Shown here in pieces: positions 14,272 through 21,265 of a stretch of 64,000 nt of DNA. The stretch lies in the NCBI RefSeq assembly GCF_000953015.1, contig NZ_LN794158.1:248001-312000 (forward strand), read 5' to 3'. Origin of the DNA: Candidatus Methylopumilus turicensis (GTDB taxonomy: Bacteria > Pseudomonadota > Gammaproteobacteria > Burkholderiales > Methylophilaceae). Under the pieces are notes generated by a model. The model did not search any database and was not told the DNA's origin. It saw only the letters and a list, made by a program, of their open reading frames with translations. The position numbers and the translations under genes were made by a program. Within the stretch, counting starts at the first letter, position 1, and each line of letters begins with the position of its first letter.

Positions 14272-14313
14272 ATGCAAAACTAGATCTGAATTACGCTTTT
14301 TCTAGTTTTGCAT
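14272..14313. terminator. 13-bp inverted repeat between convergent genes
   Basis: The arms ATGCAAAACTAGA (14272-14284) and its exact complement (14301-14313) enclose a 16-base loop. The right arm lies inside the last codons of uvrD and the loop contains the uvrD stop, so both convergent transcripts would fold here. There is no long U tract after either side, so it may work as a weak bidirectional terminator or a 3'-end stabiliser. The perfect pairing is directly visible; the function is inferred. Confidence 0.5.
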
Positions 14314-16498
14314 ATTCCATCGCAAGCCACTTAAGGCCTTCCCGTCCAAAGTTAATTTGGATGCGCATATCGCTGGCATTCCCCTCGTAGCTCACCACCA
14401 CACCTTGCCCAAATTTAGCATGTGTTACGGCTTGGCCTATCTTCCAAGGCATCGCCGATTTTTGTTCGCTACTGCTCACTGTTGGTGCGCCTTGATAGCT
14501 GTTGTCATAATGACTAGACATGCTTGGTTTTGGGGCTGGTTTGCTGTTCAGGCGTTTTAACAAAGCATCAGGAATCTCATCTAAAAATCGCGAAGCAATG
14601 CCATAACGAATTTGCCCATGGAGCATGCGGCTTTGCGCGTGGCTCAAGTAAAGTCGTTGTCTTGCGCGGGTCACTGCTACATACATCAAGCGACGTTCTT
14701 CCTCTAAGCCGTTATTTTCGTACAGGCTATTTTCATGCGGGCATAAGCCCTCTTCTAGCCCGCTGATAAATACTCCTTTAAACTCCAATCCTTTTGCGGC
14801 ATGAACCGTCATCATCTGCAAAGCGTCAGCCCCAACATCTGCTTGGTGTTCACCTGCCTCAAGACTGGCATGGGTTAAGAATTCAGTCAGGCCGCTGCTA
14901 TTATCTTCTAGGGCATCGCTATTATTATTCATAAAGCTTACCGCGGCGTTAATCAACTCATCCAAGTTGGCGATACGGTCTTCGCCTTCTTTTTCTAGTT
15001 GATAGAAGTTTTTGAGGCCAGACATCGTGGTTGCAATCTCAGTCATTTCAGTGAGCGTTATGCCTTTTGCATCATCTTGAATTTGCTTAATCAACGACAC
15101 AAAGCCCTCCAAGCCTTTACCTGGACGCCCATTGCCAACCTTGTTAATCGCGGCTTGCCACAGGCTACAATCCTGCGCGCGTGCTGATTCTTGAAGTTGC
15201 TCCAAGCTACGCGCACCAATGCCGCGAGTTGGGAAATTAATTACGCGTAATAAAGCGACATCATCTTCTGGATTGTTAATCAGCCGTAAATACGCCATAG
15301 CATGTTTAATTTCGGCACGCTCAAAAAAGCGCAGCCCACCGTAAACGCGATAAGGAATATTGTTTGAAAATAGCGCATGTTCAATCACACGAGATTGCGC
15401 GTTGGATCGATAGAGTAGGGCGATATCATTAAGCGCCCAGCCATCGCTGTGGAGCATCTTGACTTCATCAACAATAAAGCTCGCTTCATCTATGTCGTTA
15501 TAGGCTTGATAAACACGGACCGGCTCTCCCTCGCCAGCGGATGTCCATAAGTTCTTACCCAAGCGATTTTTGTTATTTGAAATAATCGCATTGGCCGCAT
15601 CCAAAATATTGCTGTGTGAGCGGTAGTTTTCTTCGAGTTTTACAATGTTCTGTACTTTAAAATCCACCTCAAAGTCACGCATATTGCCCACGCGCGCACC
15701 GCGGAAAGCGTAAATCGATTGGTCATCGTCCCCCACTGCAAAAATACAGTTATTCGGTTCTTCTTTGCCCATGCCAGCAAATAACTTGAGCCACATATAT
15801 TGCAGTTTGTTGGTGTCTTGAAACTCATCGACCAAGATGTATTTAAAGCGTGCTTGGTAATGCTTGCGAATATTGGTGTCGCGACTTAAAAGCTCATAGC
15901 AACGCAACAATAACTCCGCAAAATCCACCACGCCTTCGCGTTGGCATTGCTTGTCGTATTCTTCAAAAATCTCACGCATGCGCTGTGAGTGTGGGTCATA
16001 AGCATCCACGCTGTGCGCACGCAGGCCTTCTTCTTTGCAGCTATTGATATAGCCCATTACTTGTTTAGGTGGGAATTTCTCATCATCTACATTCATGACT
16101 TTCATCAGGCGCTTAATCGCAGAAAGCTGATCGGCAGAATCTAAAATCTGGAAAGTAGCAGGCAATAAAGCTTCACGATGGTGGGCTCTTAGTAAGCGAT
16201 TGCATAGCCCGTGAAAAGTCCCCACCCACATACCGCGCGTATTAATCGGCAACATTGCGGTCAGTCTTGTGAGCATTTCTTTCGCGGCTTTATTGGTGAA
16301 CGTGACCGCTAATAATCCAGTAGGCGAAACCTGACCTGTTTGAATCAACCAAGCAATCCGCGTCGTGAGCACGCGTGTTTTGCCACTGCCAGCACCCGCT
16401 AAAATGAGCGCGGATTGATGTGGCAAAGTCACCGCTTCTAATTGCTTGTTATTGAGTCCGGTAAGGAGTGAATCTTGAGATGCGTTTGATGTTGTCAT
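14291..16498 (-). CDS. uvrD: ATP-dependent DNA helicase UvrD/PcrA type
   Basis: This superfamily 1A helicase of 735 residues acts in nucleotide excision and mismatch repair. Motifs in order are Walker A LAGAGSGKTRVLTTRIAWL (near residue 35), VTFTNKAAKEM, Walker B ILVDEFQDTN, GDDDQSIYAFRGA, the LEENYRSHSNIL arginine motif, and C-terminal MTVHAAKGLEFKGVF and YVAVTRARQRLYLSHAQ. The tail keeps the QAVTHAKFGQGVVVSYEG Tudor-like segment that binds RNA polymerase. The start at 16498 (MTTSNASQ) is preferred; 13 further in-frame codons upstream look random. It is convergent with the BPSS1780 gene. Confidence 0.96.
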   Translation of the reverse strand: MTTSNASQDSLLTGLNNKQLEAVTLPHQSALILAGAGSGKTRVLTTRIAWLIQTGQVSPTGLLAVTFTNKAAKEMLTRLTAMLPINTRGMWVGTFHGLCNRLLRAHHREALLPATFQILDSADQLSAIKRLMKVMNVDDEKFPPKQVMGYINSCKEEGLRAHSVDAYDPHSQRMREIFEEYDKQCQREGVVDFAELLLRCYELLSRDTNIRKHYQARFKYILVDEFQDTNKLQYMWLKLFAGMGKEEPNNCIFAVGDDDQSIYAFRGARVGNMRDFEVDFKVQNIVKLEENYRSHSNILDAANAIISNNKNRLGKNLWTSAGEGEPVRVYQAYNDIDEASFIVDEVKMLHSDGWALNDIALLYRSNAQSRVIEHALFSNNIPYRVYGGLRFFERAEIKHAMAYLRLINNPEDDVALLRVINFPTRGIGARSLEQLQESARAQDCSLWQAAINKVGNGRPGKGLEGFVSLIKQIQDDAKGITLTEMTEIATTMSGLKNFYQLEKEGEDRIANLDELINAAVSFMNNNSDALEDNSSGLTEFLTHASLEAGEHQADVGADALQMMTVHAAKGLEFKGVFISGLEEGLCPHENSLYENNGLEEERRLMYVAVTRARQRLYLSHAQSRMLHGQIRYGIASRFLDEIPDALLKRLNSKPAPKPSMSSHYDNSYQGAPTVSSSEQKSAMPWKIGQAVTHAKFGQGVVVSYEGNASDMRIQINFGREGLKWLAMEYAKLEKA

Positions 16499-16636
16499 GT
16501 TGAGATTATCGCAGGTCGGTGCTACTTCGAGAACCACTTAAACGTGATTAAATAATCTTGAACTTTACTCAAGTATTGTCGGTCTTTAGTAGTGCGATGG
16601 TGATGTTGAATATTCAATGAATAATCAAGTCACTGT

Positions 16637-16712
16637 CCCACGCTTCCCTCCCTGAGCGTGGCGCCTTTTAAGGCATTTCGCCCCGACCGATCCCCTTGGT
16701 CGGGGCTTTTTT
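16637..16712 (+). ncRNA. Candidate small regulatory RNA with C-rich loops
   Basis: There is no open frame here, yet the plus strand ends in a strong intrinsic terminator that no upstream plus-strand gene can explain, since uvrD is transcribed away. Three consecutive hairpins are seen. The first is CCACGCT pairing with AGCGTGG around a ten-base loop containing CCCTCCCT. The second is GCCT/AGGC around TTTA. The third is the terminator at 16681-16705. A loop rich in CUCCC could pair with Shine-Dalgarno sequences, as in several trans-acting sRNAs. The 5' end is not defined; it may begin anywhere from about 16590. No clear promoter was found. Existence is inferred. Confidence 0.4.
16681..16712 (+). 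terminator. Intrinsic terminator, orphan on the plus strand
   Basis: The stem CCCCGACC/GGTCGGGG (16681-16688 with 16698-16705) is followed directly by C and seven or more T. Geometry is that of a classic Rho-independent terminator for plus-strand transcription. No protein gene precedes it on that strand for over 2 kb, which is why a small RNA is suspected. Confidence 0.7.
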
Positions 16713-16725
16713 TCACACTTTACTT

Positions 16726-16886
16726 GCCAGTTTACTGGCTTATGGCATGTGAACAATCGGCTTCAGCTGATATGTTCCATGGACACAACCCTTGCGGTTG
16801 GTAAATTGGGGAAGCCCCTTGCGGGCTTGGCGCAAAACAAATCGCTTTAGCGATTATGATTTTGCGGACAAGCCACTTGCTGGCTT
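16726..16886. repeat. Array of six short hairpins at 27-31 nt pitch
   Basis: Six perfect or near-perfect hairpins follow one another at 16726-16739, 16756-16771, 16786-16800, 16812-16828, 16840-16855 and 16870-16886. Stems are 5-6 bp and all different, but loops are conserved: TTTA, TTCA, CTTGC, CTTGC, TTTA, CTTGC. Two are nested in longer stems (GAACA/TGTTC around the second; CGCAAAA/TTTTGCG around the fifth). Differing stems with kept pairing suggest selection for structure. The units are not identical, so this is not a CRISPR or simple tandem repeat. Function unknown. Confidence 0.65.
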
Positions 16887-17000
16887 TGGTGAAATTCTCG
16901 GCGAAGATAAACTTGATAATTAGTAAATCCGAAAACTTCTCTTGATGTCATTCCAGCCTAAGAGCCAATATTCATTTTAATTAGCACATCAACTTCAAAA

Positions 17001-17029
17001 TGGACCCCGCATTAGATGCGGGGTGACGG
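17001..17029. repeat. REP-like palindromic element
   Basis: The 8-bp stem CCCCGCAT/ATGCGGGG around a TAG loop is flanked by TGGA on the left and TGACGG on the right. This is the general layout of dispersed extragenic palindromes in many proteobacteria. A lone GTCATTCC about 50 bases upstream may be the remnant of a partner end. Only one copy is seen in this window, so its repeat nature is inferred from form. Confidence 0.45.
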
Positions 17030-17065
17030 TGTGCAGTCTTGTTGGCTTTGATGAATCTAGACAAT

Positions 17066-17116: not shown

Positions 17117-18775
<1,659 letters not shown>

Positions 18776-19961: not shown

Positions 19962-21265
19962 TGAACAATCAAGACTTACTTAATCGAAGCTTAAAGTCTG
20001 TTTGGCATCCTTGCACACAGATGAAAGCGCACGAAACTTTGCCATTGCTACCCATTGCCAGTGGCGAGGGTGTCTGGCTTAAGGATTTTGAGGGTAAGCG
20101 TTATTTAGATGGTGTAAGTTCATGGTGGGTTAATTTATTTGGGCATAACGAGCCGCGCATTAAAGCTGCCATTAGTGAGCAGTTGAACACCTTAGAGCAC
20201 GTTATGTTGGCAGGCTTTACGCATGCGCCAGTGGTGCAGTTATCGGAAAAGCTAGGTGTGCTCACTGGGCTTGGTCATTGTTTTTATGCTTCGGATGGTG
20301 CCTCTGCGACTGAAATAGCGCTCAAAATGAGCTTTCATTATTGGCGCAACATTGGTCAGCCAGAAAAGAATCAATTTTTAAGTCTACAAAATAGCTATCA
20401 CGGTGAAACCATCGGTGCTTTATCGGTGACAGATGTCGCTATTTTCAAAGATACTTATGCGCCCTTGCTTCGTCAAAGTGCACAAATGCCATCACCAGAT
20501 GCACGCCTGGCTGAATCGGGTGAGAGCGCCGAAGCTTACGCAAATCGCTGTGCAGATTTTTTAGAAGCCTATATAAAGCAACATCATGCTGACATTGCAG
20601 CATTTATTATTGAGCCATTGATTCAATGTGCTGCTGGTATGGGGATGTACTCCTCGGTTTATCTCAAGCGTGCGGGAGAAATCTGTTCGCAATATCAAGT
20701 GCATTTGATTGCGGATGAAATTGCGGTGGGCTTTGGTCGAACAGGGACGATGTTTGCTTGTGAACAAGCCAATATTAAGCCTGATTTTATTTGTCTTTCA
20801 AAAGGCATTACCGCCGGTTACTTGCCTTTATCAGTCACGCTGACGACGGATAAAATTTATGAGGCATTTTATGACGATAGCGTGGCGCGGGGCTTTTTAC
20901 ATTCACATAGTTACACTGGCAATGCTTTGGCTTGTAGTGCGGCTTTGGCGACCTTGGCGATCTTTGAGCAAGACGATGTGCTCTCTAAAAACCAAACCAA
21001 GACGGCTTATATCAATAATCAAATTAGCACGTGGCATGATCTGCCAATCGCGCATGTCCGTAATCAAGGCATGATTTGGGCATTTGATGTGCAAACAAAT
21101 AATCAGCAATTTCAACGCGCGTTTTATCAACAAGGTTTGGAAAAAGGCTTATTGCTGAGACCGATTGGTCATACTGTCTATTGGATGCCACCCTATGTGA
21201 TTAGCCAGGATGAAATAGATTTTATGGTCAATACAACCAAGCAATTGGTCACTGCGTGCGCTTAA
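19961..21265 (+). CDS. bioA: Adenosylmethionine-8-amino-7-oxononanoate aminotransferase
   Basis: This 434-residue PLP enzyme makes 7,8-diaminopelargonate for biotin synthesis, using S-adenosylmethionine as amino donor. Family marks are SVWHPCTQMKAHE at the N-terminus, DGVSSWWVNLFGHNEPRI, YASDGASATEIALKMSFHYW, the PLP-Lys region DFICLSKGITAGYLPLS, and GFLHSHSYTGNALACSAALA. The start is taken as GTG at 19961, overlapping the preceding TAG; an ATG at 19892 in the same frame would lie inside the upstream gene. The other biotin genes are not next to it. The stop overlaps the dacB start region by 10 bases. Confidence 0.95.
   Translation: MNNQDLLNRSLKSVWHPCTQMKAHETLPLLPIASGEGVWLKDFEGKRYLDGVSSWWVNLFGHNEPRIKAAISEQLNTLEHVMLAGFTHAPVVQLSEKLGVLTGLGHCFYASDGASATEIALKMSFHYWRNIGQPEKNQFLSLQNSYHGETIGALSVTDVAIFKDTYAPLLRQSAQMPSPDARLAESGESAEAYANRCADFLEAYIKQHHADIAAFIIEPLIQCAAGMGMYSSVYLKRAGEICSQYQVHLIADEIAVGFGRTGTMFACEQANIKPDFICLSKGITAGYLPLSVTLTTDKIYEAFYDDSVARGFLHSHSYTGNALACSAALATLAIFEQDDVLSKNQTKTAYINNQISTWHDLPIAHVRNQGMIWAFDVQTNNQQFQRAFYQQGLEKGLLLRPIGHTVYWMPPYVISQDEIDFMVNTTKQLVTACA

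Follow-up and report, generated by a model that had tools for sequence, protein, structure and literature searches.

Three copies of a two-hairpin unit, probably a REP-like mobile element, behind the anti-hemB sRNA of Candidatus Methylopumilus turicensis

The genome of Candidatus Methylopumilus turicensis consists of one contig of 1,754,988 bases, of which we analysed a window of 64,000 nucleotides (positions 248,001 to 312,000). A run of six hairpins begins directly 3' of the T-tract of a terminator in this window (Table 1). The terminator belongs to a match to the anti-hemB sRNA family, which was found in 51 of the 61 genomes searched, our own included (E <= 0.001), and which is here located between uvrD and groEL. 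The anti-hemB sRNA appears in tables of PMC5688073 and PMC3521395. Like groEL, groES is located downstream of the run. The same spacer harbors a CGTC-type REP palindrome, the tag and tail of which were assigned by comparing its letters with those given in PMC3733652. Elsewhere, CGTC-type REPs are insertion targets of the units described below.

Table 1. Position of the genes, hairpins and repeat units at the locus, in window coordinates.
Feature	Position	Strand	Remarks
UvrD-type helicase gene	14291-16537	minus	upstream; best match TIGR01075, below the cut-off of that model
anti-hemB sRNA (RF02837) with terminator	16636-16713	plus	58.6 bits, gathering cut-off 49.5
U1, left part	16714-16742	plus	TTTA hairpin 16726-16739 and 5' half of outer stem
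Hairpin 1	16726-16739		loop TTTA
R2 match to U2	16740-16801		78.0 bits
U2	16743-16800	plus	58 nt; hairpin 2 (with an outer stem) and hairpin 3
Hairpin 2	16756-16771		loop TTCA
Hairpin 3	16786-16800		loop CTTGC
U1, right part	16801-16830	plus	3' half of outer stem and hairpin 4
Hairpin 4	16812-16828		loop CTTGC
R2 match to U3	16825-16886		70.2 bits
U3	16829-16886	plus	TTTA hairpin 16840-16855 in 7-bp outer stem, CTTGC hairpin 16870-16886
Hairpin 5	16840-16855		loop TTTA
Hairpin 6	16870-16886		loop CTTGC
CGTC-type REP palindrome	17001-17028	minus	same spacer; 8-bp stem, 5-nt loop; exact palindrome 17004-17024
Direct repeat of the 3' end of U3 (16876-16893)	17038-17055	plus	89% repeat
groEL	17117-18760	minus	downstream of the run

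The six hairpins at 16726-16886 that had been pointed out in the initial annotation are real, with stems of 5-6 bp and at most one G-T pair each. Their pairing had been called perfect, which is true of the other stems, while the TTCA hairpin contains one G-T pair. Start-to-start distances are 30, 30, 26, 28 and 30 nt, against the 27-31 nt given earlier. Nesting in a longer stem, as described for two hairpins, applies to hairpin 2 (TTCA) and hairpin 5 (the second with TTTA); hairpin 1 likewise has an outer stem, but this is split by an insertion.

Region 16715-16886 contains six non-overlapping hairpins, a number reached by none of 1000 dinucleotide shuffles (mean 1.06, maximum 4). Counting Watson-Crick-only hairpins, there are five, whereas the shuffles averaged 0.37 and never exceeded 3. 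When 3192 positions of the window were scanned in steps of 20, six hairpins were found at a single position, 16721, and five in two other regions, near 20301 and 34901. The shuffles and the scan rule out chance as the origin of the run. When both strands were folded against controls, 16636-16910, which includes the anti-hemB sRNA, gave z = -5.62 for the plus and -4.16 for the minus strand, and the plus strand of 16714-16890 gave z = -4.56. None of the Rfam models reached its gathering cut-off in 16714-16890; the best was AaHKsRNA82, on the minus strand, at 32.2 bits versus 51.4. We also considered the run as a part of the anti-hemB RNA and rejected this: the model match stops at 16713, short of the array. 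Of 30 anti-hemB loci, taken from 30 of the 51 genomes with a match, one only, our own, has a run of TTTA/CTTGC hairpins downstream by the criteria used.

The six hairpins are not one array, but three copies (U1, U2 and U3) of a unit of approximately 58 nt. In brief, the unit consists of a long bulged hairpin with the loop TTTA or TTCA, directly followed by a short hairpin, which in the window has the loop CTTGC. The two parts of U1, when joined (59 nt), are identical in 59 of 59 positions to an uninterrupted U1 in genome G008 of the same genus, where it is located at the orthologous site directly after the anti-hemB terminator. G008 thus provides the empty site, and U2 is a 58-nt insertion into U1 without target duplication, with CTTA before and GTAA after the insertion point. 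The loop order TTTA, TTCA, CTTGC, CTTGC, TTTA, CTTGC in the window is therefore that of U1a, U2a, U2b, U1b, U3a and U3b. The border between the right part of U1 and U3 is uncertain by a few bases.

The orthologous anti-hemB site was compared in seven other genomes of the genus. U1 alone is present in G008, U3 alone in G009 and a broken U3 in G001, and no unit was found at the site in G002, G003, G005 and G007 (four of the seven genomes with the site). Genomes G002, G003 and G005 have one CTTGC-loop hairpin by groEL, not counted as a unit, which we read as the groEL terminator on the minus strand. Genomes G004 and G006 gave no match to anti-hemB. The direct repeat at 17038-17055, beside the groEL terminator, is perhaps a remnant of an older U3 copy; a comparable stretch is located between U3 and the groEL terminator in G009.

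A search of the C. M. turicensis genome with 16715-16900 showed that approximately 16742-16799 is copied at four further places, and that bases 2-136 of the query are present in a diverged version (75%) at 1,710 kb, behind another terminator. The same filled and empty pattern was found at this second locus, with U2 present in G000 (L046) and absent in G006 (L056). Based on the like terminator and a matching downstream ORF, L046 and L056 are likely to be orthologous, the distance to this ORF being different. The two filled loci have a common insertion point and are therefore not counted as independent; one of them may have been copied from the other. One array at a fixed pitch, as read from the hairpins initially, is not supported, given the nesting of U2 in U1 with U3 following, the single units elsewhere and the patchy orthologous sites.

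A covariance model, R1, was built from seven U2 copies. It finds U3, absent from its training set, at 49 bits, and intact copies of U1 with 23.5 bits in G008 and 20 bits at 716 kb. A further model, R2, was built from 17 units; L066:1432-1487, the 18th row of alignment A2, is terminator-like and was left out. After U2 and U3, the next R2 match in the window is at 16812-16872 on the minus strand (15.8 bits, E 0.071). U1 is not matched as a whole by R2 in the window, because it is split.

The covariation strongly supports the proposed selection on structure. Two-sided compensatory changes are found at 8 of 20 base pairs in the U2 copies alone, at 17 of 20 in the alignment of 17 units, and again at 17 of 20 (122 of 613 cells) in an alignment of 31 units drawn from 25 further genomes, none of which belongs to the genus; these and all other covariation counts are inflated by kinship among the units, and the 17-unit and 31-unit alignments were fitted to models, the latter (A4) being nearly gap-free. 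The covariation score of the 31-unit alignment is 0.595, against 0.175 in shuffles and at most 0.115 in slid versions. For both the 17-unit and the 31-unit alignment, none of 500 shuffles reached the observed value.

Positions 5 and 45 are unpaired in both R1 and R2, and thus lie outside the models. Among 101 distinct 62-nt units they are C-G in 55 and G-C in 38, and Watson-Crick in 95, against 47.4 in shuffles. After merging, the pair is Watson-Crick in 24 of 25 units at 80% identity and in 10 of 12 at 70%; 0 of 1000 shuffles reached the observed count in each case. Positions 4/46 are T-A in 97 of the 101, a near-invariance that is no evidence either way, and positions 6/44 are mostly G.A (36) or A.G (34). 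At its base, the first stem therefore has a G.A-type mismatch followed by a two-pair foot, which forms the left edge of the unit.

The two constant loop classes of the initial annotation hold within the window; in the wider family this is true of the first loop alone, the second being variable. Among 100 units of 62 nt, TTTA forms loop 1 in 66 and TTCA in 26 (92 together), while loop 2 is CTTGC in 29, TTTAC in 28, AGCAC in 11 and something else in the rest. On the given strand, G-T exceeds A-C by 103 to 20 in 130 distinct units, an excess that fades to 21 to 12 and 12 to 11 when units are merged at 80% and 70% identity; if real, it would show which strand is folded. Folding with single-stranded DNA parameters gave z = -3.22 on the plus and -2.04 on the minus strand for U2, and about equal values for the two strands of U3 (-4.96 and -5.24).

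Searches of the genome and its relatives for like hairpins, as had been proposed, revealed that the units are dispersed. The C. M. turicensis genome (1.75 Mb) contains 12 units with E below 1e-10 and four weak matches with E 0.4-4. In the family, 41 of 120 genomes, from 9 of 24 genera, have units (E <= 0.01), with most copies in G069 (37) and G110 (29). In the order, 7 of 250 genomes have units at E <= 0.001, our own included. The other six are outside the family and score 31-49 bits; several have the same architecture with different stems, and others align poorly. A scan of named assemblies with the family-unit pattern gave at least 80 records, and the 80 listed were all from Methylotenera, Methylophilaceae, Methylophilales or class- or phylum-level bins. 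The unit is most likely a mobile element of the Methylophilaceae. No description of a unit of approximately 58 nt like this one was found in searches of open PubMed Central papers.

By mechanical ORF calls, 11 of the 12 own units and 27 of 31 other units are located outside ORFs of at least 100 aa (2 of the 31 could not be assigned), on either strand relative to the neighbouring ORFs. One unit, L090:1100-1161, is in frame within an 822-aa ORF carrying DNIKLGRGGIREIEF, which we take to be glnE. It seems to insert approximately 21 residues just before the DNIKLGRGGIREIEF motif.

Insertion sites were compared using 142 aligned units (A3 17, A4 31 and A5 94). Units of odd length, units whose flanks were short or contained N, and duplicates of a unit or flank were dropped, which left 120 units with 40-nt flanks. 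In 79 of the 120, CT is found among the three bases to the left, and in 41 it is absent there; in 50 these bases are CTT. When the two flanks are joined, 14 of 120 form a hairpin of score >= 18 across the junction, whereas 300 re-pairings gave 0.8% on average and 3.4% at most; at score >= 14 the count is 19 of 120, against 3.8% (maximum 9.4%). A smaller set gave 9 of 47 units at score >= 14 (47 of 48 used), against 6.5% (maximum 15.6% in 200 re-pairings). A minority of the units thus sit in the loop of another hairpin, more than the re-pairings give, and most (101 of 120) lie outside a clear hairpin loop (score below 14); some of the loop cases have common flanks and are therefore not all independent, and composites also spread together.

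Among the loops hit are those of CGTC-type REPs. For one orientation of entry the site is CTT^GA (L049, L050, L070, L081 and L085), and for the other it is a loop of the kind CTA^C or TTT^C. The target in L048 was the loop of a terminator, in L084 and L201 the TTTA loop of the unit itself, and in L139 its CTTGC loop. One Methylotenera oryzisoli assembly holds four letter-identical units in the loops of REPs that differ in their stems, with three different wider flanks.

A search for the mobilising enzyme was centred on Y1 (PF01797), which is absent from the C. M. turicensis genome and from all of 10 same-genus genomes, and present in 39 of the 120 family genomes. The association with units is weak, with Y1 in 17 of 41 unit-bearing genomes and 22 of 79 others, assuming that the unit and Y1 tables drew the same 120 genomes. 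The 39 do not include G069, in which units are most numerous. We examined 30 of the 67 Y1 matches listed, with up to approximately 1.5 kb on each side, and in none of these loci is the Y1 gene flanked by units on both sides. Only one, L128, holds a unit, which is single and weak (33.5 bits). In G120 a unit (C31:2742-2803) is located approximately 1.9 kb from a Y1 gene (C31:4741-5061), beyond the stretch searched. Inverted repeats were found at 13 of the 30 loci by the thresholds used; these are other sequences, including GTAG REPs and GGGGTCAG-type TIRs. Attachment of the unit to GTAG REPs or their RAYTs was rejected, as there is no Y1 in the 10 same-genus genomes and no locus flanked by units on both sides among the 30 examined.

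L128 encodes a 180-aa RAYT-like gene (L128:1345-1887) among GTAG REPs and an outer inverted repeat, CGACTTTGCAAG...GCAAATCGGAGTG. This outer repeat has a unit-like layout, and the weak unit is inside one of its arms. The units in L176 and L197 are bordered by an outer repeat similar to that of L128. In L110, L113, L114, L117, L119, L123 and L129, the Y1 genes are flanked by inverted repeats with GGGGTCA- or GGGGAAA-like motifs, as reported for TIRtrons (PMC3733652).

A recurring neighbour gene was searched for by all-against-all BLASTP of ORFs of at least 90 codons from 42 unit loci. This gave small groups only, which we read as probable orthologous neighbours or ORFs running through repeats. 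The mobilising enzyme was not found, and may have been lost, may be of a non-Y1 type or may act from elsewhere.

REPs tagged with GTAG or CGTC are described in PMC3733652 as short dispersed palindromes with variable stems and few loop types, forming dimers or clusters. The same source gives REP families inside palindromes for A. variabilis, T. roseum and H. neapolitanus, and treats the CGTC REPs as having no known transposase. Like REPs, the unit is short, dispersed, palindromic, mostly extragenic and present in many copies. A CGTC REP is a single hairpin with a stem of 8-9 bp and a loop of 4-5 nt, marked by a CGTC, TGTC or CCTC tag and a CCA-type tail, whereas the unit has 15 model pairs with a bulge and a second hairpin, and itself enters the loops of CGTC-type REPs as well as its own. 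On the minus strand around hairpin 1, TGTC is found in 32, CCA in 31 and both in 27 of 100 units; CGTC is found in none. The type with TGTC before and CCA after hairpin 1 (the 27 units), which includes U2 and not U1, resembles the variant tag and tail of the CGTC REPs, in part because of the covarying closing pair. The length and bulge of the first stem, the presence of another hairpin and the lack of a tag in most units speak against counting the unit as an ordinary CGTC REP.

A GTAG or GTGG tetranucleotide 5' of the hairpin is the mark of a REP mobilised by a RAYT (PMC6006769). U1, U2 and U3 have no GTAG on either strand, and GTAG or CTAC occurs somewhere, at any place, in 15 of 100 units of 62 nt. 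TIRtrons are described in PMC3733652 as RAYT-like genes flanked by long TIRs, some of them double-palindromic, copies of which form moderately abundant dispersed families. Like some of these TIRs, the unit is a double palindrome, and the TIR motif GGGGWSAS resembles some units; the one in L088 holds GGGGACAG, which fits the motif. Unlike TIRtron TIRs, no pair of units surrounds a Y1 gene in the 30 loci examined.

IS200/IS605 elements have structured ends, are mobilised by a Y1 HUH transposase and insert 3' of a short fixed target without duplication. TnpAREP cuts single-stranded REP DNA at C|T, and the E. coli REP needs an unpaired bulge (PMC8266576). The unit resembles both systems in its bulged hairpin, in the CT at many of its junctions and in the lack of a duplication in the one exact case; unlike TnpAREP REPs, the units of the window have no GTAG. 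The IS elements IS1397, ISKpn1, IS621 and ISPsy8 target REPs, and ISPsy8 sits at the symmetry axis of the predicted REP hairpin and makes a 3-bp duplication (PMC1525189). The unit likewise uses REP palindromes as a target, but unlike these four elements it is of approximately 58 nt, non-coding and without duplication at the exact empty site.

Based on these observations, we suggest that the run probably consists of three partly nested copies of a REP-like mobile element, which is non-autonomous and moves as folded single-stranded DNA. We class the unit as a new form of REP/TIR-type palindromic repeat and not as a protein-binding RNA array. The protein-binding RNA or DNA array of the initial annotation is not supported, the loop order following from nested insertion. 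We infer a single-strand mechanism and an HUH/Y1-like enzyme. The folded shape of the single-stranded unit would be recognised by this enzyme, which would cut near CT, and the unit would then be inserted 3' of CT(T), sometimes into the loop of another hairpin. U1 and U3 would have come behind the anti-hemB terminator, and U2 landed inside U1.

The strong covariation of the stems, the location of units behind terminator T-tracts at the anti-hemB and 1,710-kb sites and their mostly intergenic position could also be expected if the units were retained as transcribed 3' structures of anti-hemB and other genes, acting as terminator back-up, RNA stabiliser or protein-binding RNA. Such a functional RNA is nevertheless quite unlikely, as four of the seven other same-genus genomes with the site have no unit, identical units occur at different sites, units are found in both orientations relative to neighbouring ORFs with one in frame in the 822-aa ORF, and the array gives no Rfam match above the cut-off of the respective family. 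Still less probable, to a degree that we give it little weight, is that the units are selected DNA-protein sites with a chromosome function, similar to the BIME-like sites for gyrase, IHF or nucleoid proteins. They are dispersed, structured and mostly intergenic, and REPs are reported to bind such proteins (PMC1525189, PMC2817692), but the copies are few (12 in 1.75 Mb), the distribution is patchy (41 of 120 genomes) and the stem sequences are variable.

The units could also be the terminal repeats of a larger autonomous, TIRtron-like transposon, of which the solo units would be relics. Such a reading agrees with the mobile element preferred here and would complete it, and the dispersing, sometimes double-palindromic TIRs around RAYT-like genes described in PMC3733652 and the GGGGWSAS match in L088 point in this direction. 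We regard it as doubtful, though the least so of the alternatives: no transposase-like ORF group was recognised in the 42 unit loci compared, and the inverted repeats at 13 of the 30 Y1 loci of the family are other sequences. A somewhat bolder and rather unlikely version of the mobile element itself is an undescribed class of structure-recognised single-strand transposable elements, which can select hairpin loops, including those of CGTC REPs and their own, use an enzyme other than Y1/RAYT and build nested hairpin arrays behind terminators. The same enzyme might then mobilise the CGTC REPs, whose tag and tail are echoed by some units.

Returning to the REP-like mobile element, nested insertion explains how runs of unlike hairpins with like loops can come about, and no array function is needed. 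The covariation tells what would be recognised, namely the bulged stem, the closing mismatch and the fixed first loop, and not the letters of the stem. How CGTC-class REPs spread without an associated transposase is treated as an open question in PMC3733652, and the units record insertions inside the loops of such REPs. For the enzyme search, the units offer a concrete substrate and a concrete target.
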